Source: Sinohyriopsis cumingii | Taxonomy: Eukaryota > Mollusca > Bivalvia > Unionida > Unionidae | DNA: 64,000 nt | Direction: 5' to 3' | Assembly: GCA_028554795.2 (NCBI GenBank) | Contig: CM068832.1 | Location: 87,123,011-87,187,010, forward strand | In this document: piece by piece, positions 6,672-63,309 of the stretch | Position numbering within the stretch: the stretch's first letter is position 1 | Layout: every line of letters begins with the position of its first letter | The notes under the pieces: generated by a model | The model's database searches: none | What the model saw: the letters and a program-made list of their open reading frames with translations, nothing else | What the model was told of the DNA's origin: nothing | Translations under genes and position numbers: made by a program

Positions 6672-7347
6672 TTAACCAAATCTTTTATCAAGACCCACAC
6701 GATATCTCAACATTGGGTCATGTAAGTTTATTTCTATAAATCCGTGCGGGGTTGACTGTGCCCGCGAAAAGAAATTATTAAATTTAATTATATCCTTATC
6801 TCCGCTACACCAAGTCTGATGAATATTTCGGAACGCATGCGTATCATCTCCATTAAACACAACTCAAATATTACAATTAGCTCCGAATATTTTTGGTATT
6901 TGTTTATATCCCTGAGTAACATAAATCACATCATTGTTTTTATATCTACTTCGAGAAAATGTTCTAACTGGATTTGATTTCTTGTCCAGCATCACATCTT
7001 CGTATGCAACTAAATAATGAATGAATCCGTTTAAATCATCAATACTCGGCGCTTCATCAATATCAGTTATAAAATTAAAGATATCATCGCCATCTTTGTC
7101 CAACAATTTTGCATTTTCATTAAAATCTTTAAGTACCTCATATTATCGCTGGTCATCGACTGATGGAGCTAGTGCTATTAAATACAACTTATCACACTAG
7201 AGCCATCTCATTATCTAATTAAGTAATAATTTGTGCCATACCACTCCCAGATGGACCTATTATTATCATTCTGATAGAATTTGGTAGCGCTTGATGATGT
7301 TTAACTGGCTCTTGCTTTCGTGTTGCTGAGAAATTAATGCTATCCAT
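6672..7347 (-). pseudogene. Polinton packaging ATPase (FtsK/HerA type), broken
   Basis: In Polintons and adintoviruses this ATPase is thought to pump the genome into the capsid. The reading path starts with an ATG at 7,347, runs through a P-loop region (GPSGSGM, about 7,229-7,260 on the plus strand) and continues in a frame holding VIYVTQGYKQIPKI near 6,890. It ends at 6,672 just inside the left TIR. The Walker A lysine is replaced by methionine. There are in-frame stops after the P-loop and at 6,861-6,863, and at least one frameshift. The total of about 220 residues fits the family. The call rests on the P-loop, the VTQGYKQIP motif and the Polinton context. Confidence 0.75.
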
Positions 7348-7539
7348 ATTATATAAACGATATGCATTTATATGGAGTTATATTGTTTGCGTTGTAAAGT
7401 TAAAGCCCCAACCAATAATGTATCTACTGTTATAACAAAACATACTAGAATAGGATACGATGGAAGATGTTCAGTATGTAACAGCAATAAATTTCGTTTT
7501 TACGTAGAATTCAACGTAAAGACGGTGGTGATATTGTTA

Positions 7540-7735
7540 CATTAATTTCATAATTTCCAGGAATCCCATGGGCTAAATACTCATGAGATAAACAGCTCCC
7601 AGGATATAATTAATGTGGTCCTGCTATTCGACATGATATCAGGCTTGATAATAAAGATCAACCAAAACCAGGTGAGTATCCAGTAAATGATATTGAGCGA
7701 GCTTTTCACGTTCATGATGTGGCTTATAAAAAATA
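7540..7735 (+). pseudogene. Phospholipase A2-like fragment of a Polinton
   Basis: A plus-strand frame reads LPGYN, a stop, CGPAI, then after about 20 residues VNDIERAFHVHDVAYK. This is the arrangement of the calcium loop (GYxxCGP) and catalytic His-Asp (HD.AY) in the phospholipase A2 domain of parvovirus VP1 and some adintoviruses, where it helps particles leave the endosome. The fragment has an internal TAA and no clear ends. It lies just upstream of the integrase on the same strand. The domain identity is a motif-level inference. Confidence 0.55.
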
Positions 7736-7889
7736 AAGATCTTCAACAACGACATATTGCAAATGTGAAATTGATTCATTCGTTAAATTCCATTAAAAAA
7801 CCACATCTGGGAATCATTAGCTAATTGGTTGGTAAGATCTGCGATGAAAGGTAACTAGCATTAGGGCCTGGTAATTAATTGAACAATTA

Positions 7890-8847
7890 TTATCATGGAG
7901 TCGATTTATTATAGCCCAAGAGGATACTGGAAAGGTAGAGCAGCATGAAGCAGCAAATGTTACACGATCTGCCGCCGCAGCGTGGTTATCACTACAGGCA
8001 ATATGGCAAATTGTACCTACCACCGCCTAAACCAATTCAGCATGTACATGTCGATGTCAGCACTCCTAATGAAGTTCATCAGGCTGATATTTTATTTTTA
8101 CCACATGATACGATACAAATTGGTAGACGTCAAATAACATACAAATGCGGGTTAACTGTCATTGATGTTGCAAGTAGGTATAAAGAAGCAGAGCCACTAT
8201 CAGCTAAAACAGATGTTGAAGTTGTATCTGTTTTTGAACGACTTTATCAGCAAAGACAATTACGATATCTTCAACTTTTACAGATTAATCCTGAAAAGGA
8301 ATTTATTGGTGCAATACCATCGCTGATGAAGCGACATAATGTCAAAATACGACGAGGACACATTGCACTTCACCGCGATCAGCCAGTTGTTGAACGATTT
8401 AATTGAACACTTGATGAGCGATTATTTGGATATCAATACGAGAAGGACATAATTCAGGATACGAGATCTCGCGAGTGGGCTGCAAGATTACCAAGTGTGA
8501 TAGCTGCATTAAAAAATGAAATTACTCGAACGCTGCCATGAAACCTATTAATGCAATTACACCAATAATATACCAATACAACGACGTGATTTTTCAGCGC
8601 AGCCAGTATTATGAATGCTACTATGATGTATTTTTATGAACCCGGTGAACTTGAAGGTGGTAAAAAAAATAGAGCAACTGATCCTATTTGGAGTATTGCG
8701 GCACATCAAATTTCTAACGTAGTAAGATCCACGGGTAGACCTGCAATATACAGATTAGATTCAACCACTCCTCAACCCAGATTCACACTTGAACAATTAC
8801 AAGTAATTCCCGAGGATACACACTTAAAGCCGCGATCACTTAACTAG
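7890..8847 (+). pseudogene. Polinton retroviral-type integrase (rve), broken
   Basis: This is a DDE integrase, which joins Polinton ends to the host and leaves 6-bp duplications. Decayed N-terminal sequence (YYSPRGYWKGRAA near 7,907) precedes a frame at 7,945-8,406. That frame has VHQADILFLPHD (first Asp), a long core with TVIDVASRYKEAEPL, and INPEKEF where the second catalytic Asp is expected but Asn is found. It ends at VVERFN, with the catalytic Glu. The next codon is TGA where Arg is usual. Coding sequence continues past it to 8,541, and the C-terminal domain lies at 8,611-8,847 (EPGELEGGKKNRATDPIW). The product cannot be active: the second Asp is lost and the frame is broken at least three times. 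Confidence 0.88.
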
Positions 8848-37991: not shown

Positions 37992-40900
37992 ATGGAAGAA
38001 ACAAACTTCCGGATCGCTAATATCAACAGCAAGGGGATATACAAAGCGAAAGCAGACAAAATAGCCAAAGAAACAAACTTTGAGATAATAATGATACAAG
38101 AAACACACTATGGAATTAAGCCAGAATTCAAAATTTTAGTAGAAGACAAACTTAACGCAATAAAGATATGCAACAATTTTACAAACAATGATATTAGAGT
38201 GGGTTGCAACAATAATATTTTTTAATAAAACAGGCAGTAAGCTAGTAAAGGTTTGAGGTGGGGGAATTTTTTTAAGGGACGGTTGCTACATGTTAAAATG
38301 TTGAATTGCCATATTATAAATGTGTACATGCCAGCTAATAAAAATAAGAAACTAATTTTAAAGAAAACTTACATACCTACCTACAACAATATTCGATGGA
38401 AAATCTAATCATAGGGGAAGATTTCAACTGGGTAGGGGACGAAATTGACAGAACGGCTGACCTAACAAGTGACAAAATATACCGAACTGAAATGGTAAAT
38501 TTATTAAACAAACACAATTTACATGACATTCATAGTAAACTGAACATTTTAAGAAGAGAATTTACCTTTAACTATAAATAAAACCAGTCTAGCAGGTTTT
38601 ATAAATTTTACGGGAATTTTTATGATCCATTAATATATATTAATGCTGCAATAACCAACCAAAAACTATCAGACCATTTCATGTTCACTATTGACCTAAA
38701 AATGAAAAAAAAAATAATAGAAAAATATGGGCCAAATAATAAAATAAAAAAAGAAATTGAAACCTTCAAAAATGAAGAAAATATTAATATAATAATTGAT
38801 TGGGATGTTTTTGAAAAACATAATGAAAAGAATATATATTCAGTACTCAAATAGAGGGCGGAAAAACAGAAAAAAGACAAACACGAACTCAAATTTGAAC
38901 TAAGCAAAACAACAAACGACGATGGAGAAAAAAAACGATTGACAGACAAAATTATAATCGTTGAAGAAGACGAAAATCAGGGGGGAATAATAAGGGCGGG
39001 AAAATTTATAGAGATCTACAACAAGGCAAAAAACTTATATAAACGAGAAGAATTTAGAAAAGGGGGTGATACAATTTTAAACAAAATCAAAATAAACAAT
39101 GTAACCCATACTGTAAAAGAAGATATCCTAAATAATATTTCCCAATATTATAAAGAACTATACACCACACAGAACATATACTTCAGCACAATCGACAGCT
39201 ACTTAAAAAATGTCGACTGTGAGATGACATCAACAGAACATAGAGACCAATGTGATGACGTCATCTCAGATGAAGAAATCACAAAAAGTATATCTACACT
39301 CACAACAATCGCCAGGGAACGATGGACTCACCGTGGAATTCTATCAAAAGTTCCACGGTGAACTGACCCCGATCTTAAACGCTTTGTATAACAATATATT
39401 TTTAAGTAAAAATAAAATGACTAAATCTATGAGGGAGGGAGTTATCACACTTATATACAAAGGGAAAGGGGATAGAGACGAGATTAAAAACTGGAGGCCC
39501 ATATCACTTTTAAACACGGACTATAAGATTTTAAGTAGTATTTTAACAAATAGAGTAACGGGTAGGATAAACAAAATAATTATTGTAAATCAAACTTGTG
39601 GGGGAGGGATATACAAAACAAAATTTTAAACATTAAAACTATAATTAACTACATAAATGAAACATGTATGATGAGTGTTATGGTACTCTTCGACCAGGAG
39701 AAAGCTTTCGACCGATTTGAACAAAACTATATAAAGAATGTTTTTAAAAAATTTGGTTTCAGACCCAGTTTCTGAAATGGACCAAAATCCTACAAACTGG
39801 GATAATTTCATGTGTACAATTAAACGGGAAATGCACGAAATAATTTGAAATAAAACGATCAGTGAGACAAGGATGTCCACTATCAATGCTACAATACGTA
39901 ATGGCAATAGAAATCCTAAGTCACACGATAAGAAACAACCCAGAAATACAAGCAGGGGCGTATTAACCATTAGGCAGACTAAGCACTTGCTTAGGGCACC
40001 AGGGCCAAAGGAGGCACCACAAAGTTGAGAAAAGGGTGAAAAGAAAAAAAAAAGCGAATGAAGATTTGTAAAAACAAATTGATAAAACTAGTGCCAATTG
40101 ATCATAATGTTCTGTTTCTTGATCATGGTACACCCTAGGGTTATCTTCCCAGGTGTACGTTGAAAGGAGGGGGTCACCAAGATTTGTCAGTGCTTAGGGC
40201 ACCAGTGAGCCTTAATCCGCCCCTGAATGCAAGGCATACAAATACCAAACCTAAAAAAGAATAAAAAATGCTCTAACATGCATATGATTGCACCAACTTT
40301 ATAAGAGAGGGGAAATGCTATATGCATCTAGTAGAAGAATTTGAAAAATTTGGTAAAGCGTCGGGTTCCAAAATAAACCACAACAAGCACGAAATCTTAA
40401 AAATAGTTAACTGGAGGGGCAACCACCCTGGATTGCCCCCCCCCCCCCAACACACACACACACACCTACTGAGAGACACGGTAAAGGCTCTAAGGGTTTA
40501 CTTTGGTAAAAAAGAAAAGAAGCTGTAGAAAACTATGAACATATTATCAACAAAATAAGAGAAAATATGAAAATCTGGCCATGGCGCCATTACGTATCAT
40601 GGAGCGGGCCCAAGTGGCCAAGACTTATTTATACTCAAATATTAACTACATAATTAAATCCATATATACGGATAATACTATTTTAAACAAAACAGACAAG
40701 GAAATAATAGATTATATATGGAATCATAAAATGCATTATGTAAAAAAAGAGACATTATATAGGGCCAAAAGTAAAGGGGGCTTGGGGTTGCCGAGCCCCC
40801 TACTACTATAATTAACTAACATAATCAATAGATTAAAAAATTGCAATCAGACCCGGCTACAGCGTGGGAAGCACTGTACATCTACTGGTTCGGCTTCACC

Positions 40901-45032: not shown

Positions 45033-45968
45033 TAACCCCGTAATAGGTTGACCACTGGGTCGGGGAACCATCCCAGGATCACCTTACAATCAAACATTTC
45101 TGGTTATCAGATAATCTAGGGATAATAAATATAATCTACAGAGAAAGTAAAAAAGAAAAACACACACACACACACACGCATATACACATGCATATGGCCA
45201 AAATCTAGGTGACATGGCTTTTGTGATATTACAGTATTTTGTTCCTGTTTACCCTCAAGTCAGAGACAAGTTAAATGTTCATTGTTGAGGTCCATTTTTG
45301 AAGAAATTGGTCCTCTTTTTTATTTACCTTGGCAGTGTAATTTTCAATGTTCTTATGCATTGCAACTATTTGCTTAAAAGCAAAAATAGAAGGATTTTTC
45401 ATATTGAATCTGCAAGTATAAATATAATATTTTGCCAAAATAAGCAGAAAATTACCCAAACTGTCCAGTTGTTCACTTCCTAAAAATGTTTCTTTTTTGG
45501 ACAGATGTACAATATTTGGGCAAAAAGGTGCAAAAACTTCATTAAAACGGTACCAAAACTGTGAAGTAATACTGCAGTCATAAAAGAGATGCTCAATACT
45601 TTCAGTTTCACTCTTACAGAAAGTACATTTGTTGTCATCAAATATGTTAATTCTTTTAAGAAAATCATTAGTAGCGATTATTCTATGGATTAATTTAAAG
45701 TTAAAAGAGATCAACTTGGTATCCTTGGTACAGCATTTTGCCCGGCTATATATATCAGACCACTCCTCACTACTTATATTTTTATTTAATACTTGCATCC
45801 AAGTTTCTTGCTTCGCAGTGTGTTGCCTTTTAGCTTCCTGTCAAAGATCTTTGTAAATAAACTTGAGTGAATCTTGTTTTCGCAAGTTCGTTATTTTATC
45901 ATCCTGCTTATCAAAATTATTATGTACTAGGTGGTTTTTTATGGCATCTTTCCATGCTTTAGGAATTC
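45002..45968 (-). mobile_element. 5'-truncated LINE with perfect target duplication
   Basis: A 967-bp insertion on the minus strand. It begins at 45,968 in ORF2 and ends in a ~30-nt poly-A (poly-T at 45,002-45,031 on the plus strand). A perfect 12-bp duplication, AGCAAAATCCAA, flanks it (44,990-45,001 and 45,969-45,980). This is classic target-primed reverse transcription. Confidence 0.93.
45271..45925 (-). pseudogene. C-terminal LINE ORF2 fragment (zf-RVT)
   Basis: An intact frame of 175 codons (45,271-45,798), with in-frame coding extending upstream past one stop (QDSLKFIYKDL). It contains the zf-RVT pattern CTFCKSETESIEHLFYDC followed by FW, typical of the end of a LINE reverse transcriptase. 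Endonuclease and RT catalytic parts are missing through 5' truncation. The long open frame and perfect target duplication argue for a recent insertion. Confidence 0.88.
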
Positions 45969-52626: not shown

Positions 52627-52828
52627 TGGTACATGCCATGTTTACTGCTGCTGCTCATAGCAAGAGTTCGAAACCTGTGTTAAGCTATGCACTTTTACAG
52701 TATGATCGAGATACACCACATGACAAGATTAGTCAGAATGTGTTTGTATCAAGTGAAATAAAACAGAGAAAATCAAAACTTAAACACAGTGACATACAGA
52801 AACTTAATATTGGTATAAACACATTGAG
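52627..52828 (+). CDS. Possible host terminal exon, cut by the PolB element
   Basis: An open frame follows a TTTCTAG acceptor-like site. It encodes about 67 residues with protein-like composition (VLSYALLQYDRDTP, then a Lys/Ser-rich helix). Without the insertion it would end about four codons past the ATTGAG site. The element replaces those codons with about 20 from its own TIR. I do not recognise the protein, and no upstream exon could be linked. Confidence 0.3.
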
Positions 52829-52837
52829 AGTAGTGAA

Positions 52838-53083
52838 GTGGGACGATATAGCGTCAATGGGACTTACCATTAAAAACCACCCTGGGACGATATAGCGTCA
52901 ATGGGAAATTTAACATTGTGGAAACCCCTGGGATGATATAGCATCAAGGGGAATTTAACATGGGAATATGGGACTGTTTAGCGTCAAGGGGAATTGAACA
53001 GGGTGGGACTGTATAGCGTCAAGGGGAATTTAACATGGGCAAAAAAAAAAAAAAATCTTGGGCCTGTTGAGCATCAAGGGGAA
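52838..53083 (+). repeat. Six iterated GGGACNNTATAGCGTCAAGGGGAA motifs
   Basis: Iterations begin near 52,840, 52,884, 52,930, 52,970, 53,005 and 53,060, spaced 35-55 bp. The core is GGGA(C/T)NNTATAGC(G/A)TCAA(G/T)GGGA. The right TIR carries the same set. This looks like a binding-site array for a replication or transcription factor. Confidence 0.85.
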
Positions 53084-53092
53084 ATGGAGCAG

Positions 53093-53124
53093 GGTCGGGA
53101 CCCTATTTTAATAAGGTCCCGACC
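53093..53124. repeat. 10-bp-arm palindrome in the TIR
   Basis: GGTCGGGACC and its complement GGTCCCGACC are separated by 12 AT-rich bases. The right-TIR copy has one altered arm base. Confidence 0.9.
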
Positions 53125-53261
53125 TGATGGGTCTATGGAAATGGAACAGGCGAAAATTGAAACAGGGAGGGGTCTCTATTTTTTATTTTTTTTAAAACAA
53201 AAAAAAAAAAATAAAAAAAGGGTAGGCAGTGAAAGTCAAGATCTTTTCGAGACCTATGAGT

Positions 53262-53277
53262 GGCCCTGAAAAGGGCC
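53262..53277 (-). terminator. Histone-type 3' stem-loop in the left TIR
   Basis: The minus strand reads GGCCCTTTTCAGGGCC, an exact fit to the metazoan histone mRNA 3' stem-loop (6-bp stem, UUUC loop). It is preceded by CCAAA and followed by ACTCA and a purine-rich GAAAAGATC about 15 nt on. It lies 24 bp past the stop of the minus-strand gene at 53,301. Confidence 0.75.
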
Positions 53278-53300
53278 TTTGGGTTTATGTTAATATGCCC

Positions 53301-53531
53301 TTAACATAAAGGGCATCTGTGACTTCTTCTTGTCCTTAGGCTTCGCCTGACTGCAGGACCATAGACTAAAACTCTTTTGAGACATCCTTGCCTCTCCACA
53401 TAGATCCTACGTATCCATAGGCTGGTATCTGTCCTATGGACAACTGTCCACTTGGATCGGACGTACATCGGTATGTCTGTCCTGAACATCATCGAAGACA
53501 CAAGCGTAGAAGATTGAACGTTGGTCCACAT
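53301..53531 (-). CDS. Small basic protein, 76 aa
   Basis: An open frame starting at the first ATG (53,531) downstream of a minus-strand TATA box (TATAAATAAG, about 53,574-53,584). An upstream in-frame ATG at 53,711 lies before that TATA, so the shorter product is preferred. The protein becomes Arg-rich toward its end (RRSLRTRRSHRCPLC). Small basic proteins of this kind serve as genome-condensing core proteins in adenoviruses and adintoviruses, but the resemblance is only compositional. The transcript would run outward into the TIR and meet the histone-type stem-loop at 53,262-53,277. Function unknown. Confidence 0.5.
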   Translation of the reverse strand: MWTNVQSSTLVSSMMFRTDIPMYVRSKWTVVHRTDTSLWIRRIYVERQGCLKRVLVYGPAVRRSLRTRRSHRCPLC

Positions 53532-53573
53532 GTTGAGGCGCCGAGAACAGGTGAAGGAATGTAGTGAACTACA

Positions 53574-53700
53574 CTTATTTATAGGGAGAGGAAGGATTGA
53601 AACGGAGTTCACTGACCAATCCAAACACGCGTTACAAAATTCAGTCAGCCCACATCCAATCCGAAGAGAGCAGTCTGTGACGTCATGTGGTCTATATAGA
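53574..53700. promoter_or_regulatory. Divergent promoter with TATA boxes, CCAAT boxes and CRE
   Basis: Minus-strand TATA (TATAAATAAG, 53,574-53,584) and plus-strand TATATA (53,693-53,698) face away from each other. Between them are two CCAAT motifs (about 53,616 and 53,656) and a perfect CRE, TGACGTCA (53,678-53,685), 7 bp before the plus TATA. This is a compact RNA polymerase II bidirectional promoter. Confidence 0.7.
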
Positions 53701-53746
53701 TTTGCTAGCACCTGTGTGCAGTCAATTCATGCGACAGTTTTTCAAC

Positions 53747-54321
53747 ATGACGGAAACTCAGAAAACGATAAATTGGGGTGCACCAGCTGTGGAGACTACC
53801 CAAGGGAAACCGGACTTACTTTCAGAAGAGGTGAATTGGGATTTTGTGGATTTTCTTACCTCGCAAGAATTTGTTCCGGAACCTTCGTCACCTTCTCCTT
53901 CATTACCACACGTGGAGAAATTTAGACAGAGACAGAAAGAAGAATTGGAGAAATTTATACAACAGCAAAAGGAAGCGGAACAAGCTTTTCTCCTACAGCA
54001 ACAGCAGCAAAAAGAAGAGGTAAGAAAAAAAACAAGAAGAAGAAGAAGCAGCAGCAAAGAAACAAGGGTGTGAAAATCAAATGGTCACGGTACTGTTAGA
54101 CATTTTAGCGGAGTTAAGAAGTCTGAAACAAATGTTATCAGATTTCTTTATTACGACCAAAGAGAATACGACCTTCCCGAGCTAAACACTCCAACCCTGT
54201 GACTAAGCCTCCCGTGCCACCCTTAGTGATTTCAACCAAATCATCATCATCAACACTACGCAGTCCAGAAGTAGGCCTTGGCCGTGGCAAAGGCTTAAGG
54301 CAGTTAAAGTTGATTGCTTAA
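53747..54321 (+). pseudogene. Glu/Gln-rich coiled-coil protein, frameshifted
   Basis: The start at 53,747 (MTETQKTINWG) lies about 50 bp after a TATA box. The first ~85 residues include a Pro/Ser linker and a Glu/Lys/Gln-rich coiled-coil stretch. The frame breaks at an A8 run (54,024-54,031). Coding sense continues in the next frame (MVTVLLDILAELRSLKQML, helical) to about 54,185. It then continues in a third frame with a Pro/Ser-rich, basic tail ending GLGRGKGLRQLKLIA at 54,321. It is one gene with two frameshifts, or two overlapping genes. The product is not recognised. A histone-type stem-loop follows 21 bp after the last stop. Confidence 0.55.
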
Positions 54322-54335
54322 ACTCACCCCTACAC

Positions 54336-54400
54336 CAAAAAAGGCCCTTTTCAGGGCCACCCACGTCTGTCGAAAAGAGATAGACTTTCAATTGCCAACA
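54336..54400 (+). terminator. Internal histone-type 3' stem-loop with purine-rich element
   Basis: GGCCCTTTTCAGGGCC at 54,343-54,358 is followed at once by ACCCA, the usual histone cleavage-site sequence, and by CGAAAAGAGATAG about 13 nt later, like a U7-binding downstream element. The ~60-bp block resembles the inner end of the TIR (62,172-62,225). Confidence 0.78.
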
Positions 54401-54517
54401 TCCATTCAAGCTATAAAAAAAAAACATTTTACCTCTGTAGTACGTGTGTATGAGTGTGTGAGTGTAGGTTCTTATTTTAAAATCAAAACCCAAAGACACT
54501 TACCTTTTAATACCTAA

Positions 54518-54523
54518 TTTATT
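54518..54523 (-). terminator. Poly(A) signal for the zinc-knuckle gene
   Basis: The minus strand reads AATAAA here, about 130 bp beyond the stop of the gene at 54,653-55,033. No histone-type stem-loop was seen on this side. Confidence 0.4.
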
Positions 54524-54652
54524 CTTTTATAAATATTTACAATCCAATTCACAATTCACAACAGAGCACTTTAAAAAGTTCATAAACTTCTTCTGTCTCA
54601 TTGTTCACTCTCTGAGTTTTTTGAATTTCTTCACCACCACAGTCTTTTCCTC

Positions 54653-55033
54653 CTATTCCTCCTCACTTTCTTCTCTTCTTCTTTTCTTCTCCTGTTTCTT
54701 TTTCTTCACCTGTTTTCTTCCTCTTCTTCCTCTGAAGAATCCCTCTCTTCTTCTGACTCCTTGTTTCTTTTTTGGGCAATCTGGAGACCAGTGTCCTTTT
54801 TCTTGACAATAATAACAGGTATCTTGACTTTTGTCTTTTCTAGCCCCTTTTTTTCTTTTTTGACGGTCTGGACACTCTGAAGACCAATGCCCTTTCTTCT
54901 GACAGATATAGCAAGTATCTTGACTTTTATCTTGAAAGGAAGGAGAGTAGTCCCTCGGCTGGTCTGAAGAGAATTTTTGGATGACCCCTCGCAAAGCTCT
55001 GATGAAACGTTCGATCTGGGTAGTCTCTTCCAT
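54653..55033 (-). CDS. Double CCHC zinc-knuckle protein, 126 aa
   Basis: Two CX2CX4HX4C knuckles are intact: CYICQKKGHWSSEC and CYYCQEKGHWSPDC, about 28 residues apart. The N-terminus is acidic and helical (MEETTQIERFIRAL). The C-terminus is a long Arg/Lys/Glu tail. Such knuckles bind single-stranded nucleic acid, as in retroviral nucleocapsids. The start at 55,033 is chosen because the TATA box (TATATAAAAGG, 55,086-55,096) lies about 55 bp upstream, while the earlier ATG at 55,081 would be too close to it. It is one of the few uninterrupted genes of the element and is divergent from PolB. A role in packaging, replication or host RNA binding is speculation. Confidence 0.8.
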   Translation of the reverse strand: MEETTQIERFIRALRGVIQKFSSDQPRDYSPSFQDKSQDTCYICQKKGHWSSECPDRQKRKKGARKDKSQDTCYYCQEKGHWSPDCPKKKQGVRRREGFFRGRRGRKQVKKKKQEKKRRREESEEE

Positions 55034-55167
55034 CGTTGTGCTCGGTTTGAGAGTGAAATGAATAGTGAAAGGACAAGACACATACCCTTTTATATACGCT
55101 GGTCTGCTATGACCATAAATTAGTCCATGGTGTTTAAACTTTAGTCATTTGACTTTTTGCTATCAAG
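55034..55167. promoter_or_regulatory. Divergent promoter between zinc-knuckle gene and PolB
   Basis: A strong minus-strand TATA (TATATAAAAGG, 55,086-55,096) and a weaker plus-strand CATAAATTAG (about 55,113), 50 bp before the PolB start, share this 134-bp gap. Confidence 0.6.
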
Positions 55168-58100
55168 ATGAAACGATCCAATTCATTTGAGAAGAAGGAA
55201 GAAGAAAGTAAGAGGCAGAAACGTGCTTTATCGCCTCGTACCAGGGCTGAAGTCTTGGCACAAATTCATGCCAGTGATTTTGAAGAGGACATGAGTGAAC
55301 CAGAATCCAAACCCTCTAAACAAAGTTCACCACCCTTAGTCAACCGTGAAAAGTACTATTCCATTCAAGAGACGGAAGAGCATCCCTCTAGAAAATTTAG
55401 AACTACAGCTTACAAATACACGGTGAAGTTTAAAGATTTCAAGTCCGAAGTACTGTTAGAGAAAGCAGAAGGGTTCATCACCGAGATGTGGATTGAAATG
55501 CTCAGCATGTTTGGCCTCTCCACCCTGTCTGAGCGAAGGACAAGAACGAGTGCATTGTTCAACTGGTCTGCGCACGTTTGTCAGCCCTGCCTGTTACCAA
55601 CAACATTTGAAGATGCAAGGTTCACAGAAGAAATGTGCTTGTCAGCTGCTGAGATTGTGTCCTACCTGTGGACAAGGCATACTTACCAATAATGCCAAGG
55701 CACACCTGTGTCGAGGAAAGAAAAAATGTCACATTTGCTGCCACATCGTGGACTTGGAACACGAATGCTATGTGCAAAAATACCAACCCCAACCAGAGAA
55801 AGAGATCGGTCACAAGAAGAAAGGCAATTTCATCTTTTTCGATTTTGAATGCATGCAAGAGAAAGGTATTCACATTCCTAATTTCTGCGTGGCTCATCGA
55901 GCGTGCGAGAAGTGCATTCAAGAACCTATTTTCAGTCATTGCCTTCACTGCAGCAAGATTTCTGGAGGACGTGAAAAAATCTTTCGAGGACCGAACACGC
56001 TAGCTGATTTCGCTCGATGGGTCTTACACCCCATCGACAAGACGTGGATCCAAGAGGACATCGAACGTTACGGAGATTGTCATCGTCATGCCACAGTGAT
56101 GGCTCACAATTTCTCCGGATACGATGGACAGTTTCTTCACAGATACTATACAGAACATGGCACCGAACGTCCTAAAGTCACTTTGAATGGAGCCAAAATC
56201 ATTTTCATGCAAGTGGGACAAGTACAGTTTAAAGATTCGATGAGTTACTTAGCCATGTCTTTGAGTCGAATGCCTAAAACGTTTGGAATGACAGAAATGG
56301 CTAAAGGGTGCTTTCCACACTTTTTCAATACGGAAGCCAATCAACACACCGTTCTACCCCATTTGCCTGAGGCTCACTATTACGACCCTGACAACATGCG
56401 TACCGAACAACGAGAAGCTTTCTACGCTTGGTACCAGGCTCACGCCTCTGACCCTTTCGACTTTCAGGAAGAAATGCTAAAGTATTGTCGTTCCGACGTG
56501 GACATTTTACGGCGTTGCTGTGGAAAATTTCGAGAACTGTTCATGGAACACGGAGGGGTCGATCCTTTCAAAGAAGCTTGCACCATTGCCAAAGCATGTT
56601 CCTTAGTGTACCGGCAATGATTCATGCCTGAAAACACCGTGGCTGTCATCAGTCCTCAAATGACCAACTATGTCAAACGTCAATACTCGGTCAAAGCCCT
56701 ACGCTGGTTACATTACTTGTGCGACAAGGAAGACAAATGGATTCAGCATGCCCGCAACGGAGGGGGTGAAAAGACCATCAGAATGCATTCGGTCGATGGT
56801 TGGGACTTAGAAAACCCCAAGATTGTGTACGACTTTAAAGGTTGCTTATTTCACGGATGCCCCGTCTGTTACCCTGACCGTGGCACTAAAAATCAGTTTT
56901 TACAATGAACCATGGAAGACTTGTACCAGGCCACATGTCAGCAACGCCTAAAGCTAGAACAGGAAGGATACTAAGTGGTGGAAATGTGGGAACACGAGTA
57001 CCATCACCGTTTGAAAACCGATCCCGAGTTTAAACACCTCGTGGAAAGTTACCAGTTCATGGACCCCCTGAACACGAGGGATAGTTTGTACGGAGGAAGG
57101 ACCAATGCCACCAGTTTGCTGTACCAAGCCGACGAAGAGAAAGGAGAAGAAATCAAATACTTGGACGTGTGTTCACTGTATCCCTACGTGTGCAAATATT
57201 GTCGCTTTCCTGCAGGGCACCCACAATTGTTGACGGAACACATCGATTTGAAAAACATTCGACAATATGAAGGCTTGATCAAATGTAAAGTTTTGGCTCC
57301 CACTGACTTGTACCATCCCGTTCTACCTCACCATTGTCAAGACAAACTGATGTTTCCTTTGTGCCGTACTTGTGCTGAAACGTGCAACCAAGACCAGCCT
57401 TGTCAGCACACCCAGGAAGAACGGGCCTTGACGGGGACGTGGGTCAGCGTAGAATTGTTCAAAGCTCTGGACATGGGATACCAACTGTTAGAAGTGTATG
57501 AAATTTGTCACTTTCCCAAGACAGAACAATACAACAAGGGTGACCCCACTCAGAAAGGCATTTTGGCAGACTACGTGGATGCCTTTTTGAAACTAAAGCA
57601 AGAAGCCAGTGGTTATCCGTCCTGGTATCACACTCCCGAAGACCAAAAGACATTCAAAGAGAAATACTGGGCACAAGAAGGCATTACTTTAGATCACATC
57701 GAGAAAAACAAAGGCAGGCGATCGTTTGCCAAAGTGATGTTAAATTGCTTGTGGGGTAAAATGGCACAACGACCGTGTTTACCCAAGACAGAATATTTGA
57801 CAGAACCTTCCTGCTACTTCCAGATGATTCACAACAAAACTAAATTCATCAAACACGTGGACGTCGTTCGCGAAGATTTGATCTTAGTCAATTACGAAGA
57901 AGATCTGGACTTTGTAGAAGCCGATCGTTTTGGAAATGTCATCATTGCAGCTTACGTGACAGCTCATGCTCGCTTAAAACTGTACGAAGCTTTAGAACTG
58001 TTAGGGGAACGCGTCCTGTACTTTGACACGGATAGTTGCATCTACATCGATCACCCGAGTCAACAGCACCTTAACATCGAAGGAGACCGTTTAGGAGCCT

Positions 58101-58468
58101 GGACAGACGAGCATTTTGACGACAAGATTCTAAGTTTCGCCAGTGGCGGTCTTAAAAATTACGGCTACGAATACCGGGACAAACAAGGAGAAGTGCACAC
58201 GAAGTGTAAAGTGAAAGGATTGACTCTGAATTATCGTACCAGTCGAGTGGTGAACTTTGGCGTATTGAAAGAAGCTTTGCAGTCTAGAGAAGATGAACAC
58301 TTTAAAGTGACCACCTATCAACCGAACAAGATTGTACGTTTACCCACTCACCACATCGTCAGTCGACCCTTGGAAAAAGTCTGTCAAATCGTGTATCAGA
58401 AGCGAGTGCGGCTTCCCAATCACTTTATATTGCCATATGGACATGTCGGTATAAAACATTGGTTGTAA
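55168..58468 (+). pseudogene. polB: Protein-primed type B DNA polymerase, 1 frameshift and 3 stops
   Basis: It would replicate the linear element from a terminal protein. Residues 1 to ~110 are a charged N-terminus (55,168-55,500). A frameshift between about 55,490 and 55,690 leads into a Cys/His-rich zinc-binding region. The exonuclease follows: Exo I FFDFECM (55,846), Exo II NFSGYDGQF (56,110), Exo III YCRSDVD (56,482). The polymerase then has YGGRTNA (57,090), motif A DVCSLYP (57,164), motif B KVMLNCLWGK (57,731) and motif C YFDTDS (58,019). All catalytic acids are present. In-frame stops are TGA at 56,618, TGA at 56,906 and TAA near 56,952. The length of about 1,100 codons is normal for Polinton PolB. 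The terminal-protein gene is not identified. Confidence 0.93.
58450..58456 (+). promoter_or_regulatory. TATA box for BIR gene 1
   Basis: TATAAAA lies inside the last codons of PolB, 42 bp before the ATG at 58,492. Confidence 0.6.
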
Positions 58469-58491
58469 GTGGATAGCCACTCACCAGAAGC

Positions 58492-58932
58492 ATGACTACG
58501 CCACAGCAAGAATCAAGTGAGAAACCTGATGAGAACTCCAAGTTCAAACCCTACCATTTTCCAGTCTTCTTACCTGACTATTGTGATTGTGCCCGTCGAT
58601 TGGACACATTTCAGAAATAGTTTACGGATAGGGAAGGATTACCTTCTTCGCATGTTTTAGCTAGAACAGGATTTGTCTACTTGGGACCTGAGTCAGGATT
58701 GGGATACGAAGTACAGTGTTTCGCTTGTGGACTGAAGTTACGAATGGATCTATGTATCTATAAAGGTTCAGCTATTCTGGAACACACTCGATGGTCTTTG
58801 CACTGCCCTTACCTTTCTATGGCCTTTCCACCCATTACACTACGGTACAATTATGACGGTACCTTAGAGACAGTACCTTCAAAAACTAGATATAAAAAAG
58901 GAACGATGTACAAGCTTGAGACTGCATTGTGA
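58492..58932 (+). pseudogene. BIR-domain (IAP-like) protein 1, one stop
   Basis: A 147-codon frame with one internal TAG at 58,618 where a BIR domain normally has Trp (TFQK-stop). The remainder gives a BIR fold: LARTGFVYLGPESG, then the zinc ligands CFAC, His in EHTRW and a final Cys (C-x2-C-x18-H-x6-C, two residues longer than the usual x16). BIR proteins bind caspases or related ligands and can block cell death. No RING domain is present. It overlaps no other gene. Its stop at 58,932 lies 5 bp before the TATA box of BIR gene 2. An anti-apoptotic role for the element is inferred. Confidence 0.85.
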
Positions 58933-58936
58933 CTAG

Positions 58937-58944
58937 TATAAAAA
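58937..58944 (+). promoter_or_regulatory. TATA box for BIR gene 2
   Basis: TATAAAAA followed by GGGG, 63 bp before the ATG at 59,000. Confidence 0.7.
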
Positions 58945-58999
58945 GGGGCTATGGTCAAGATCGATAGTTCATTGTGACTACCAAGACCAAGCGAACAAG

Positions 59000-59635
59000 A
59001 TGAATCCTTTCAGAGAAACACAAAACAAGTTCAGAAAGGCACAATTCAAGTTTGGGGCTTCTGAAGTGGAATGTGATTGTGAGCCTTGCGATGGGAACGA
59101 TGCTGTACGCTGTGACCTTAGCGATGCCGTAAAGCATCATGAGAACTTTGTTCTCACTACCCCTCTCATGGAAAGTGATGCTGTGCGTGTCAAACCTGAG
59201 GGATGTGAAAGCGATGCTGCTCGTCCTCTTGGACACTTTACTGGGTTTCATTTTAAATGTGGATGTTCACCTTCACGTCTACCCCCCTACGGATGTCATC
59301 CAGACTTGAGCAAACTCCTGTCCATGTCACCCAGCCCTCATCGAGACGAACCTGTGAAAGACGAATATTCGTTCCCTGTGTGTTTGTCGGAATACTGCGA
59401 CTTTGAAAATCGTCTTCAATCATTCAAAGGAAAATGGCCTAAGTATCTGGGAGGACCGATCCCCAAAGAATTAGCCAGAGCCAGATTTTTCTACTTGCAC
59501 GAAGGGGATAAAGTCAAGTGCTTCAGTTGCGGTGTGTCACTTCACCACTGGGAACCACAAGATTCGGCCTATCTAGAACATGCTCGTTGGTCACCGAATT
59601 GTCATTACTTACCCTTAGTGGGACCGAGACATTGA
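59000..59635 (+). CDS. BIR-domain (IAP-like) protein 2, 211 aa
   Basis: Intact. Residues 1-110 are acidic and contain loosely repeated phrases (NDAVRCDLSDAV, ESDAVRVKPEG, ESDAARP) and several Cys pairs (CDCEPCDG, CGCSP). Residues ~125-205 are a canonical BIR: YCDFENRLQSFKGKWP, LARARFFYL, then CFSC, HARWSPNC (C-x2-C-x16-H-x6-C). There is no RING, CARD or second BIR. IAP-like BIR proteins are common in large DNA viruses of invertebrates and expanded in molluscs, so capture from a host IAP is plausible. It follows BIR gene 1 in tandem, and the two share the arrangement D-Y/F-C-D before the domain, suggesting duplication. Confidence 0.93.
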   Translation: MNPFRETQNKFRKAQFKFGASEVECDCEPCDGNDAVRCDLSDAVKHHENFVLTTPLMESDAVRVKPEGCESDAARPLGHFTGFHFKCGCSPSRLPPYGCHPDLSKLLSMSPSPHRDEPVKDEYSFPVCLSEYCDFENRLQSFKGKWPKYLGGPIPKELARARFFYLHEGDKVKCFSCGVSLHHWEPQDSAYLEHARWSPNCHYLPLVGPRH

Positions 59636-59646
59636 AGTAACTTACC

Positions 59647-60036
59647 ATGTCGTTAAAGAAGAAACCAGATTGGTTAGGAGTCAAATGTTGGACATCATCG
59701 AGACCAGTATTTAAACTTCATTTCAAAAACGATATTGAATCATTACCTAAAGAACTGCAAGAGAAGATTTACAAGGAAGTTTGGCAGGGGCTTGCCAGAG
59801 TGAAATCTCAATGGATAACTGTAGAACTTTTATTCCGAGAAATTCACAAGAGATAAGTGAAAAAAGTCAACCAGTGTGTTAGATTTCTCTGGGTCAAGGG
59901 TGCATTCATACTATTATATCGCTTTAGACCGTTTACATCAAAAGAGTTCAATGAGATTCTTGAACGTTACCCTGAATGGCAGTGGTCTGAAATTACTCAC
60001 TATGTGGATTACTTTTGCTCTAGGAGAAGATTGTGA
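59647..60036 (+). pseudogene. Hypothetical 129-codon protein, one stop
   Basis: It starts 11 bp after BIR gene 2. The frame reads MSLKKKPDWLGVKCW and an amphipathic Leu/Glu helix to a TAA at 59,854. It continues in the same frame (VKKVNQCVRFLWVKG, then ERYPEWQWSEITHYVDYF) to a TGA at 60,034. Keeping one frame across the stop argues for a single gene. It is small, basic and Trp-rich. No family is recognised. Confidence 0.5.
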
Positions 60037-61562
60037 ATTGTACGTTTTAAGTGATGATCTTGGTAATATAAGATTTTAGTCTTAGGGGGATGTTTTCCTT
60101 CACGTCTGCGCTTTAACTATAAGAACCTACAGTATTCGTCATTCAGACCGTGTGATCGACGAGAGAATCTAATCCGAAACCGGCTAAGCAATGAAATTAT
60201 CTAAATTACACTAATAAATACTTACATAAAATATATATATATCAAATTTGGACCAATGGCGAAGACAAGGATTCGGTCTCCCCGAACTCTCCATTTATGA
60301 GAGGCGAGTGTGATCGACGAGGGAATCTAATCCGAATCTAGCCAAAAGTATTACAAAATAAATACACTCACAAAACAAGTACCAAATTCTGAACAATAGA
60401 AAAACTCATTTTATCAAAACTAGCTCACTGACTGATAAAACTCTACAAACAAATATCATTAAATTAAAAAACACCTAGTTCAAATACCAGGAAGAAATAT
60501 ACAGGGGGTGGGTGGTGTGAAAAACAAAACAAACCTTCTCCACTTCTCCTAACTTAATACTCACCTAACACCCTAACTAACAGCTCCAAAAGTCTATCTT
60601 CTACATAGGTGACAGCTAAGACAAAAACTAGGTATAACCATATAGTCCCAAAATAGAACGTATAAGGTGGTCGCAAGAATAGACCATCAGTGATCCCCCG
60701 TATTAAGACCCAAAACTTACACATATAAGGTAGTCAAAAAAACCCAACGACTATCGGGCCCGGCGGCACAATGCTGCAAATATAACAAATATATAGAATA
60801 CCACCCCAAAAATTACTTGTATAAGGTAGTCAAAAAAAAACAGTGACTATAGGGCCAGCAGCACAAGGCTGCAACCAAAATTTACAACTAGATAATTAGG
60901 ACCCAAAAACAATTACTCAGTAAGATGGAAAAAACACCAACTCCATCCAGGGCCAGCAGCACAAGGCTGCAAAACCAATCGACAAATACTGTCACCTAAA
61001 AGCTGACATCGACCTCAATAGACTCTATCTCTCTTAAAAACAGCACAGAGTTTTTATGATTCAAAATTCCAAAGACGGAAATTTAGAACAAAAATACCCT
61101 GGATCGGAAAAACCCTGCTAACCTGTGGCAAGACAACTCCGCCCGAGCCTGACCACTTTCGCCCTTTGCGACGGACAGACATCAAAACACATACGTGCAG
61201 TGCACGCATCATAAATTAAAAATACGGACTAGATCGGGTCCAATCCCACTAGTCGCTAATCAATGCAAATGAATGACAGAGTGTGTGCTGGGTCCAATCC
61301 CACTCAAACAAAACATAGGCCTTACAATCAGATCGATGTGTACACAAAAGTACCTTGACCTGACGGCCCAATCAATTAGTGTTCTGTGAACACAGATATG
61401 CCTGGAGGAAGTGGCTCCATTCCTTCCTCCAAGGAGTAATCAGTTAGGTGCCTGTGGCATCATAAACCAGTGGTACATGCTCAATGCGAAGCGCACGCCA
61501 CTATAATTCAACTCAACAACAACAACAATCGTTCAGACCATTCCACGGAATAAACAAAGAAG
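60037..61562. other. 1.5-kb ORF-free region with tandem repeats
   Basis: No open frame of note on either strand. It holds a 158-bp direct repeat pair (starting 60,150 and 60,308 at GTGTGATCGACGAG) and about four ~97-bp tandem units (about 60,640-60,990). Three of these end in a hairpin-forming GCAGCACAAGGCTGC-like block. It could be a replication, packaging or non-coding RNA region. Confidence 0.6.
60640..60990 (+). repeat. ~97-bp tandem repeats with hairpins
   Basis: Recurrent ATAAGGTAGTCAAAAAAA and GGGCCAGCAGCACAAGGCTG blocks end near 60,780, 60,874 and 60,973. GCAGC and GCTGC pair across ACAAG. Confidence 0.85.
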
Positions 61563-62159
61563 ATGGAGGTGACAAAATTATTCAATCTATTAAGAGATAT
61601 CTATTTTTGGATAATGGATGTTGAATATGTTGTAGGAAGAATAGAAAAGGAATGGAGTGATGGAAATAGGCAAGACTTGTTAACTATTCAAGTCAAAGGA
61701 CTAAAGGTGGCCGGAGATCTCATCGCAGGGATGATAGAAGAAGAAGTCAACAAGTCAAGCGGATTTACTGACCCAACTTATGTCAGAGTGGGAAGTTTGA
61801 AGGAAGCACTGGACCATGTCATCCAAGTCGGGTGCTTCCTGGAAAAAGTATTGTATTGGATGGAGTGGTGATACGTAAAATGGGGGTTCGACCAGTTGAC
61901 AAAAACGGAAGAAGTAATGAGGAAAGTGCTGACGGAAGAGGTAAAGAACATCAAAGAAAAGTGGTCTAAGTAAAGAAAAGAAGAAGAAAATAGAAAGAGA
62001 AAAAAAAGCTTTGAGAAACTCAACAATAACTGGATAAGAATACAGGAGAAATTCCGAGTGATAGGTCATCCTGACTGGATGCCTGAGTCAGAAATAAAGA
62101 AGAAGATGACAGGAATATTGGTAAAAGTTAGAAGATGGTTGAAGAAGTGGAAGAGTTAG
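61563..62159 (+). pseudogene. Hypothetical 198-codon helical protein, two stops
   Basis: The start MEVTKLFNLLRDIYFW follows GAAG at 61,559. One frame runs to TAG at 62,157 with internal TGA (61,869) and TAA (61,971). The N-terminal half is helical with alternating acidic and hydrophobic residues (VEYVVGRIEKEW). The C-terminal half is very Lys/Arg/Glu-rich with a conserved-looking HPDWMPESEI. No family is recognised. Its place next to the right TIR, on the strand running outward, mirrors the minus-strand gene at the left end. The stop lies 18 bp before the histone-type stem-loop of the right TIR. Confidence 0.55.
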
Positions 62160-62168
62160 AAGAAGAAG

Positions 62169-62630
62169 AAACCCAAAGGCCCTTTTCAGGGCCACTCATA
62201 GGTCTCGAAAAGATCTTGACTTTCATTGCCTACCCTTTTTTTTTTCTTTTTTTTTTTTGTTTTAAAAAAAATAAAAAATAGAGACCCCTCCCTGTTTCAA
62301 TATTCGCCTGTTCCATTTCCATAGACCCATCAGGTCGGGACCTTATTAAAATAGGGTCCTGACCCTGTTCCATTTCCCCTTGATGCTCAACAGGCCCAAG
62401 ATTTTTTTTTTTTTTTTTGCCCATGTTAAATTCCCCTTGACGCTGTACAGTCCCACCCTGTTCAATTCCCCTTGACGCTAAACAGTCCCATATTCCCATG
62501 TTAAATTCCCCTTGACGCTATATCGTCCCAAGGGTTTCCATAATGTTAAATTTCCCATTGACGCTATATCGTCCCAGGGTGGTTTTTAATGGTAAGTCCC
62601 ATTGACGCTATATCATCCCACTTCACTACT
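62169..62630 (-). repeat. Right TIR of the PolB element
   Basis: 462-bp inverted copy of 52,829-53,286. Confidence 0.95.
62178..62193 (+). terminator. Histone-type 3' stem-loop in the right TIR
   Basis: GGCCCTTTTCAGGGCC, preceded by ACCCAAA and followed by ACTCA and, 16 nt on, CGAAAAGATC. It sits 18 bp after the stop of the gene ending at 62,159. Confidence 0.75.
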
Positions 62631-62636
62631 ATTGAG

Positions 62637-63309
62637 TATATATTTATAAATCTGAAATGGTTAATTAAAAATAGTTATTAGTCAAATTAACAAGGATGCC
62701 AGTTACTAGCTTTGATACTCTGTTTTTGTTAACTGAAAACATGTAGACTCAAGCCACATCTATAATGATAATTTCTGGCACTTTCAAGGCTGATATAGCC
62801 CTTTCATTAAAACCTGCAAACATTTTTGACAATTTTATCTGCACACATTGCTGTACATTTTATACACATCTGACTTGCCAGTATTTCTCCCAGCCATTGA
62901 GCTACCATTGGCAGAAGAGATCTTTTTGCGAAAAATATTTCCAAATCAAATCTTGTTTGGTTACTTGTAAATCGACATGGAATAGCACAACCCTAGCACA
63001 AATATTACTATCCCTACTTCGTGGAGACATTGAGGCTATGACATTGTAGCTACTCAACCTTCTGTCCTATGACCATTTTGAATTTTGCGCTAGATATGGC
63101 TGTTACCAAATACCGGTGTCTAAACAGTACATAGGTGCTTTCTGGAAAGATTTGCATGCAGTAAGATTGCACATCGGATCCACAATATTTCCATCAATAT
63201 CAACACAGATTGGAGGGGGGCCTTTGAAATTGTTTCTACATATTTAAACAGGTTTTCAATGAATTGTTGCTTTTTGTTTTTATTAGCAGGTATTTATACA
63301 TTTATAAAA
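62637..63309. other. No gene recognised
   Basis: This is the host DNA continuing the site interrupted by the element. A minus-strand stretch (63,040-63,235) reads protein-like phrases such as GPPPICVDIDGNIVDP, but stops break it. It may be an old coding remnant. Confidence 0.35.

Follow-up and report, generated by a model that had tools for sequence, protein, structure and literature searches.

Histone-type mRNA 3' ends have been held to be exclusive to replication-dependent histone genes (PMC6303110). The histone mRNAs of Lucina pectinata carry the stem-loop near the stop codon and, in some of them only, purine-rich elements (PMC6210712), so the hairpin is present in the bivalves, the host group of the DNA studied here. 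In Polinton-like elements, rve-type integrases usually make target site duplications of 6 bp, and a 2025 survey of 8,300 Polinton-like virus (PLV) genomes counts in its main text six Rfam hits to the histone 3' untranslated region (UTR) stem-loop at the gathering cut-off, with none in the cryptophyte PLVs (PMC12220804). We analysed a 64,000-nt stretch of the genome of Sinohyriopsis cumingii (contig CM068832.1, positions 87,123,011 to 87,187,010; hereafter the window, whose numbering is used throughout), which contains a mobile PolB element of 9.8 kb at 52829-62630. An original prediction made from the letters alone had proposed that genes of this element, placed at 53262..62193, end in histone mRNA-type stem-loops; the stem-loop sites at both limits of that span are exact, but the element extends further.

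Histone-type stem-loops and a downstream purine block

The hairpin GGCCCTTTTCAGGGCC occurs exactly three times in the window, at the places and on the strands first proposed, whereas 100 dinucleotide-shuffled windows contained none, even when as many as 2 mismatches were tolerated (mean count 0, maximum 0). The supposed fit to the histone mRNA stem-loop was borne out by an Rfam scan, positive at 3/3 sites. All three copies scored above the gathering score of 34 for RF00032 (Histone3) and aligned to the full model (1-46), with E-values of 3.2e-7 to 8.4e-7 in a search of both strands with 4,227 Rfam families:

53262-53277, minus strand: histone-type stem-loop of the left terminal inverted repeat (TIR); RF00032 match 53237-53282, 37.1 bits
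54343-54358, plus strand: internal histone-type stem-loop; RF00032 match 54338-54383, 36.0 bits
62178-62193, plus strand: histone-type stem-loop of the right TIR; RF00032 match 62173-62218, 37.1 bits

The stem-loop has a 6-bp stem and a 4-nt loop with U at loop positions 1 and 3, as SLBP requires, and the alignment takes in an A-rich 5' flank and an AC(C/T)CA 3' flank. Across the whole 64 kb no other family gave a match above its cut-off. A permissive scan of 52700-62750 found no fourth histone-type match, so the PolB and BIR genes of the window are without a stem-loop.

Each hairpin is followed by a purine-rich block resembling the histone downstream element (HDE):

53242-53247, minus strand: HDE-like purine block AAAAGA, left copy, starting 14 nt beyond the stem-loop
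54373-54380, plus strand: HDE-like purine block AAAAGAGA, internal copy, starting 14 nt beyond the stem-loop
62208-62213, plus strand: HDE-like purine block AAAAGA, right copy, starting 14 nt beyond the stem-loop

The spacing was judged against the distance at which a U7 site is expected downstream of a histone hairpin, and the purine-rich block foreseen at that distance after the internal copy was indeed there. AAAAGA or a longer form begins 12-14 nt past the hairpin in 4/4 copies, namely the three of the window and one in a related contig, L001, described below. As a background for the two elements, 0.07% of positions have AAAAGAGA beginning 8-20 nt downstream of them, and 1.0% have AAAAGA, the shorter form of the TIR copies.

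The internal and right-TIR copies have 42/51 bases in common, divided into 21/21 in the hairpin and its flanks, 4/10 in the spacer, 8/8 in the purine block and 9/12 after it (Fisher p 1.6e-4; the blocks were drawn after the alignment was viewed). The 60 nt upstream of the two hairpins are only 30% identical, and therefore the shared module begins at the hairpin flank. Together the four copies, which comprise three distinct sequences, align without gaps over 46 nt, and the stem, the AC and the AAAAGA are invariant. At the sequence level, it is confirmed that the mobile PolB element carries a real 3'-end module of the histone type and that the module is conserved. RNA folds of 54338-54383 and 62173-62218 place the purine region within or beside a second small hairpin, whose register, by eye, differs between the two window copies; this second hairpin is not used in the argument.

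Genes upstream of the stem-loops and recurrence in a related element

The distance from stop codon to hairpin is 23 nt at the left copy (minus strand), 21 nt at the internal copy, 18 nt at the right copy and 28 nt in L001. Since 74% of element positions have some stop codon at most 30 nt upstream, this distance is by itself weak evidence and the genes need support of their own; we dropped it as proof of gene ends and turned to codon usage, homology and domains. For the codon-usage score, the 95% and 99% points of the null lie at 0.3 and 4.1. Three frames end before the window hairpins:

53301-53726, minus strand: possible left-end open reading frame (ORF), stop 23 nt before the stem-loop; weak coding signal, no Pfam match
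53747-54321, plus strand: internal gene with an interrupted frame, ending before the internal stem-loop
61554-62159, plus strand: right-end gene frame, interrupted in frame by stops at 61869 and 61971; last stop TAG at 62157-62159

The N-terminal piece of the internal gene has one homologue among 31 candidates (P0222, 63% identical over 78%), and the frame ending at 54321 scores 4 for codon usage in windows starting at 54148-54220, with frames mixed further upstream. The frame of the right gene, ending at 62159, reaches up to 6 in windows starting at 61644-61896 (one of them at -1) and is zero or negative from 61932 on. For the left frame ending at 53301 the score runs from -5 to 2 within the ORF, the first window, at -8, beginning before it, and another left frame reaches 5. 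Thus, the proposal that the stem-loops lie 18-24 bp past stop codons in the sense of the gene holds for the three gaps and for the sense at the internal and right copies, but on codon usage the left gene is doubtful. Pfam gave no histone match in the ORF pieces before all four hairpins, so that none of these was seen to follow a histone gene.

We searched GTDB genome contigs with a PolB alignment and obtained, among 70 pattern matches, three relatives (L001, L002 and L003), which we take as contamination of bacterial metagenome-assembled genomes (MAGs). L001 is a Maverick/adintovirus-like contig of 8,883 bp whose PolB is 39% identical to that of the window in a 457-column alignment and has homologues in Gigantopelta, Mactra, Mercenaria and Mytilus, among others. 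Alongside PolB it carries an rve integrase (with a sub-cut-off Pfam match to a chromodomain), a protease-like protein matching the cysteine protease S273R in sequence (E 5e-4), a TBP gene and a C2H2 gene. The TBP gene, at 7189-7755 of the contig on the minus strand, is a TATA-binding-protein gene (TBP E 2e-27) within a Maverick/adintovirus-like contig, an observation in its own right.

L001 has an RF00032 match at its positions 8335-8380 (35.8 bits, E 3.3e-7, cut-off 34). The stem-loop lies 28 nt past the stop of a C2H2 zinc-finger ORF (zf-C2H2 5e-11), whose predicted product is clearly a C2H2 protein, and is followed by AAAAAAGAGA. The last ~220 bp of the contig contain 16-17-bp CCCATTGTCC-type tandem repeats somewhat like the window TIR, and the C2H2 gene therefore probably adjoins an element end; the contig holds no second TIR arm. 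Judged from the letters of the two loci, this recurrence in an independent element is the strongest support for the histone-type signal.

The signal is not general, since the PolB genes of L001, L002 and the window are all without an RF00032-type match downstream. Viral contigs searched by PolB gave only three distant PolBs (L004-L006), 0/3 of which had an RNA-family match at E <=1, and in the phage and plasmid collections the PolBs retrieved were all distant, from 1 and 3 records, respectively. As a decoy control we took ten IMG/VR loci that had been picked up with a degenerate stem-loop pattern; 0/10 passed RF00032, in effect a control on 4 sequences, to which the ten loci reduce when near-identical ones are pooled.

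Structure of the PolB element and its Polinton-type ends

Both TIR arms and the target site duplications of the element could be delimited, and between them lie further genes:

52823-52828: left copy of the target site duplication ATTGAG, 6 bp
52829-53286, plus strand: left TIR, 458 bp, with a GGGACGATATAGCGTCAA-type repeat array in its outer part and the histone-type module at its inner edge
54653-55144, minus strand: zinc-knuckle (zf-CCHC) ORF without a stem-loop; AATAAA 130 nt past its stop
55460-58468, plus strand: PolB frame, not followed by a stem-loop; stops at 56618, 56906 and 56972 leave 55460-56620, 56621-56908 and 56975-58468 open
58621-58932, plus strand: BIR-domain ORF
58937-59635, plus strand: BIR-domain ORF
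62169-62630, minus strand: right TIR, 462 bp
62631-62636: right copy of the target site duplication ATTGAG, 6 bp

The two TIR arms (52829-53286 and 62169-62630) are nearly identical. Their inner edge lies a few bases before the stem-loop in gene sense, and therefore both arms carry it and both end genes share one 3' module. The outer parts (52839-53094 and 62371-62638) contain six diverged TGGGACGATATAGCGTCAA-type units spaced 35-57 bp apart.

Matches to PF03175 in the first and third of the three PolB pieces (8e-16 and 1.3e-24) mark a PolB of the protein-primed type, as in Polinton/Maverick elements. Among the best 120 of its 872 homologues, the first is an 88% identical JGI protein, the named top ones are mostly from bivalves (Saccostrea, Ostrea, Mercenaria, Crassostrea, Mya), and further ones come from a MAG of Candidatus Thiodiazotropha, a lucinid-clam symbiont, and then from echinoderms, corals and others. 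A Saccostrea protein (P0031) joins PolB, BIR and RING domains. In the hard clam, DNA transposons are enriched around inhibitor-of-apoptosis (IAP) genes (PMC7831173), and PolB elements with BIR (inhibitor-of-apoptosis) ORFs may feed the bivalve IAP expansion.

A tblastn search with the L001 and L002 integrases (E 0.01) found no rve integrase in the element. With the L001/L002 proteins at the same threshold no protease, packaging ATPase or capsid was found in it either, the capsid test being weak because Pfam did not identify the capsid genes of L001/L002. As these four were not found, we do not class the locus as a full Polinton but call it a PolB element whose ends are of the Polinton type. 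About 45 kb from the element, 8050-8535 (ORF 7939-8406, plus strand) is a Polinton-type integrase relic with 30% identity to that of L002 (E 8e-11). Pieces of reverse-transcriptase elements lie at 39228-39629 and 45271-45840 (RVT_1 below the cut-off; zf-RVT E 9e-11). A comparison of the element DNA with the rest of the window gave no other copy at E 1e-3.

Interpretation and comparison with known systems

What was observed is a module with its position and strand, selectively conserved between two copies that have diverged, and found again in an independent element. The reading we prefer, with a probability of roughly 0.78, is that, in some animal PolB elements, the end genes have their 3' ends made by the host's histone pre-mRNA processing by way of this portable module. 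Under this reading, a host-type 3' module, in which the stem-loop with its flanks is followed, from 12-14 nt beyond the hairpin, by a purine-rich block, would stand after the outward-facing end genes and one internal gene. Host SLBP would bind the hairpin in RNA polymerase II transcripts, and the U7 small nuclear ribonucleoprotein (snRNP) machinery, acting at the purine block, would cut just past the hairpin; the resulting mRNAs would have no poly(A) and would peak during host DNA replication, when an element replicating by its PolB would most want its accessory proteins. Placed at the TIR inner edge, the module would provide the two end genes with a common 3' end and would stop transcripts from running out of the element. 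We infer the processing by SLBP and U7, the lack of poly(A), the S-phase timing and the benefit. The interpretation first given to the window element is partly supported, by the positive Rfam scan at all three sites and by the recurrence in L001. The wider claim, that a Polinton-like class of animal elements has adopted the histone mRNA 3'-end system at its TIR inner edges, so that its end-gene mRNAs would be non-polyadenylated and replication-timed and its end genes the first non-histone protein-coding genes of animals normally to use it, we hold at slightly better than even odds.

Several points weigh against the preferred reading. The window copy is broken, a relic with three stops in the PolB frame and poorly preserved end genes, and its left-end gene is the doubtful one noted above; the PolB of L001 is broken as well, with a change of frame near 900 and a stop codon in frame at 1990. 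RF00032 matched neither L002 nor L003, although no element end is seen in either (L002 runs off both contig ends inside genes and the L003 PolB fills its contig almost end to end), which leaves the signal in 2/4 PolB elements of the group formed by these contigs and the window, and in two lineages only. Covariation gives no signal, because the stems are identical in 4/4 copies and compensatory changes are absent among them. Past the purine block, GACTTTCA (54383-54390 and 62218-62225) is conserved 8/8, which the stem-loop/U7 model does not predict. Pairing of the purine block with human, sea urchin and fly U7, which may differ from the host U7, was shuffle-like in 8/9 tests (p 0.076-0.44), with one at p 0.02, and the predicted folds of the window copies pair part of the purine region and could mask it. 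Finally, both TIRs and L001 have an AATAAA 111-115 nt downstream of the stop, which would allow ordinary polyadenylation.

That last signal is the starting point of an alternative in which the mRNAs end mostly at AATAAA and the hairpin is limited to a role in S phase or in translation. It has a parallel in C. elegans, whose histone genes conserve the hairpin and, in most, a polyadenylation signal (PMC1924863), but neither AATAAA nor ATTAAA occurs within 400 nt of the stop of the internal gene, and we regard this dual or fallback use as unlikely, if by no means negligible. We consider it improbable that the element captured part of a host histone 3' UTR, which conversion then copied into the TIRs and which now has no function. 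In favour of this, the stems are identical in all copies, and rRNA genes within PLVs are taken as host captures by the survey authors (PMC12220804); yet a histone coding remnant was looked for with Pfam in the ORF pieces before the hairpins and not found, two distantly related elements carry the signal at the same kind of place, and the spacer has decayed while the hairpin and purine block are intact, which favours use.

The hairpin might instead serve the DNA, as a TIR site for replication, for protein binding or for stopping transcription, with no histone-type RNA signal, considering that 2/3 window copies lie within a TIR and that a T-rich tract follows there. Against this, one window copy lies outside the TIR, the strand sense follows the gene at the internal, right and L001 copies, and the asymmetric conservation of flanks, loop and downstream purines fits an RNA signal, all of which makes a purely DNA-level role very hard to credit. 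A chance palindrome in an AT-rich, repeat-rich relic is next to impossible and was rejected, given the shuffles (0 in 100), the RF00032 E-values (<1e-6 per site) and the independent recurrence in L001.

If the use of host histone processing is real, the element would show a self-replicating parasite tying its gene expression to the host S phase, would offer an outside test of what SLBP and U7 require, and would have part of its transcripts missed by poly(A)-selected RNA data. The analysis suggests the borrowing of the host's cell-cycle-timed histone machinery by a virus-like mobile element. The original prediction had known of no description of this in Polinton-like elements. In PMC literature we found none with both 'histone stem-loop' and 'Polinton' or 'transposable element', and a wider PMC search gave none with this claim among the matches listed; the nearest is PMC12220804, whose six hits stand in its main text as a bare count with no position, gene, function or discussion.

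The element is like the Polinton/Maverick and adintovirus types in its PF03175 PolB, its long TIRs (458/462 bp) and its 6-bp target site duplication; among the best 120 of 872, its PolB homologues include a coral adintovirus PolB as well as the bivalve proteins. Unlike Polinton/Maverick, the 9.8-kb copy is without a detected integrase, protease, ATPase or capsid and has BIR and zinc-knuckle ORFs instead. Its gene ends are like the 3' ends of replication-dependent histone mRNAs (RF00032; SLBP, U7 snRNP) in their 6-bp stem, 4-nt loop and flanks, in a purine block 12-14 nt downstream and in lying 18-28 nt past a stop codon; they differ from histone mRNA ends in following the non-histone genes of a mobile element.

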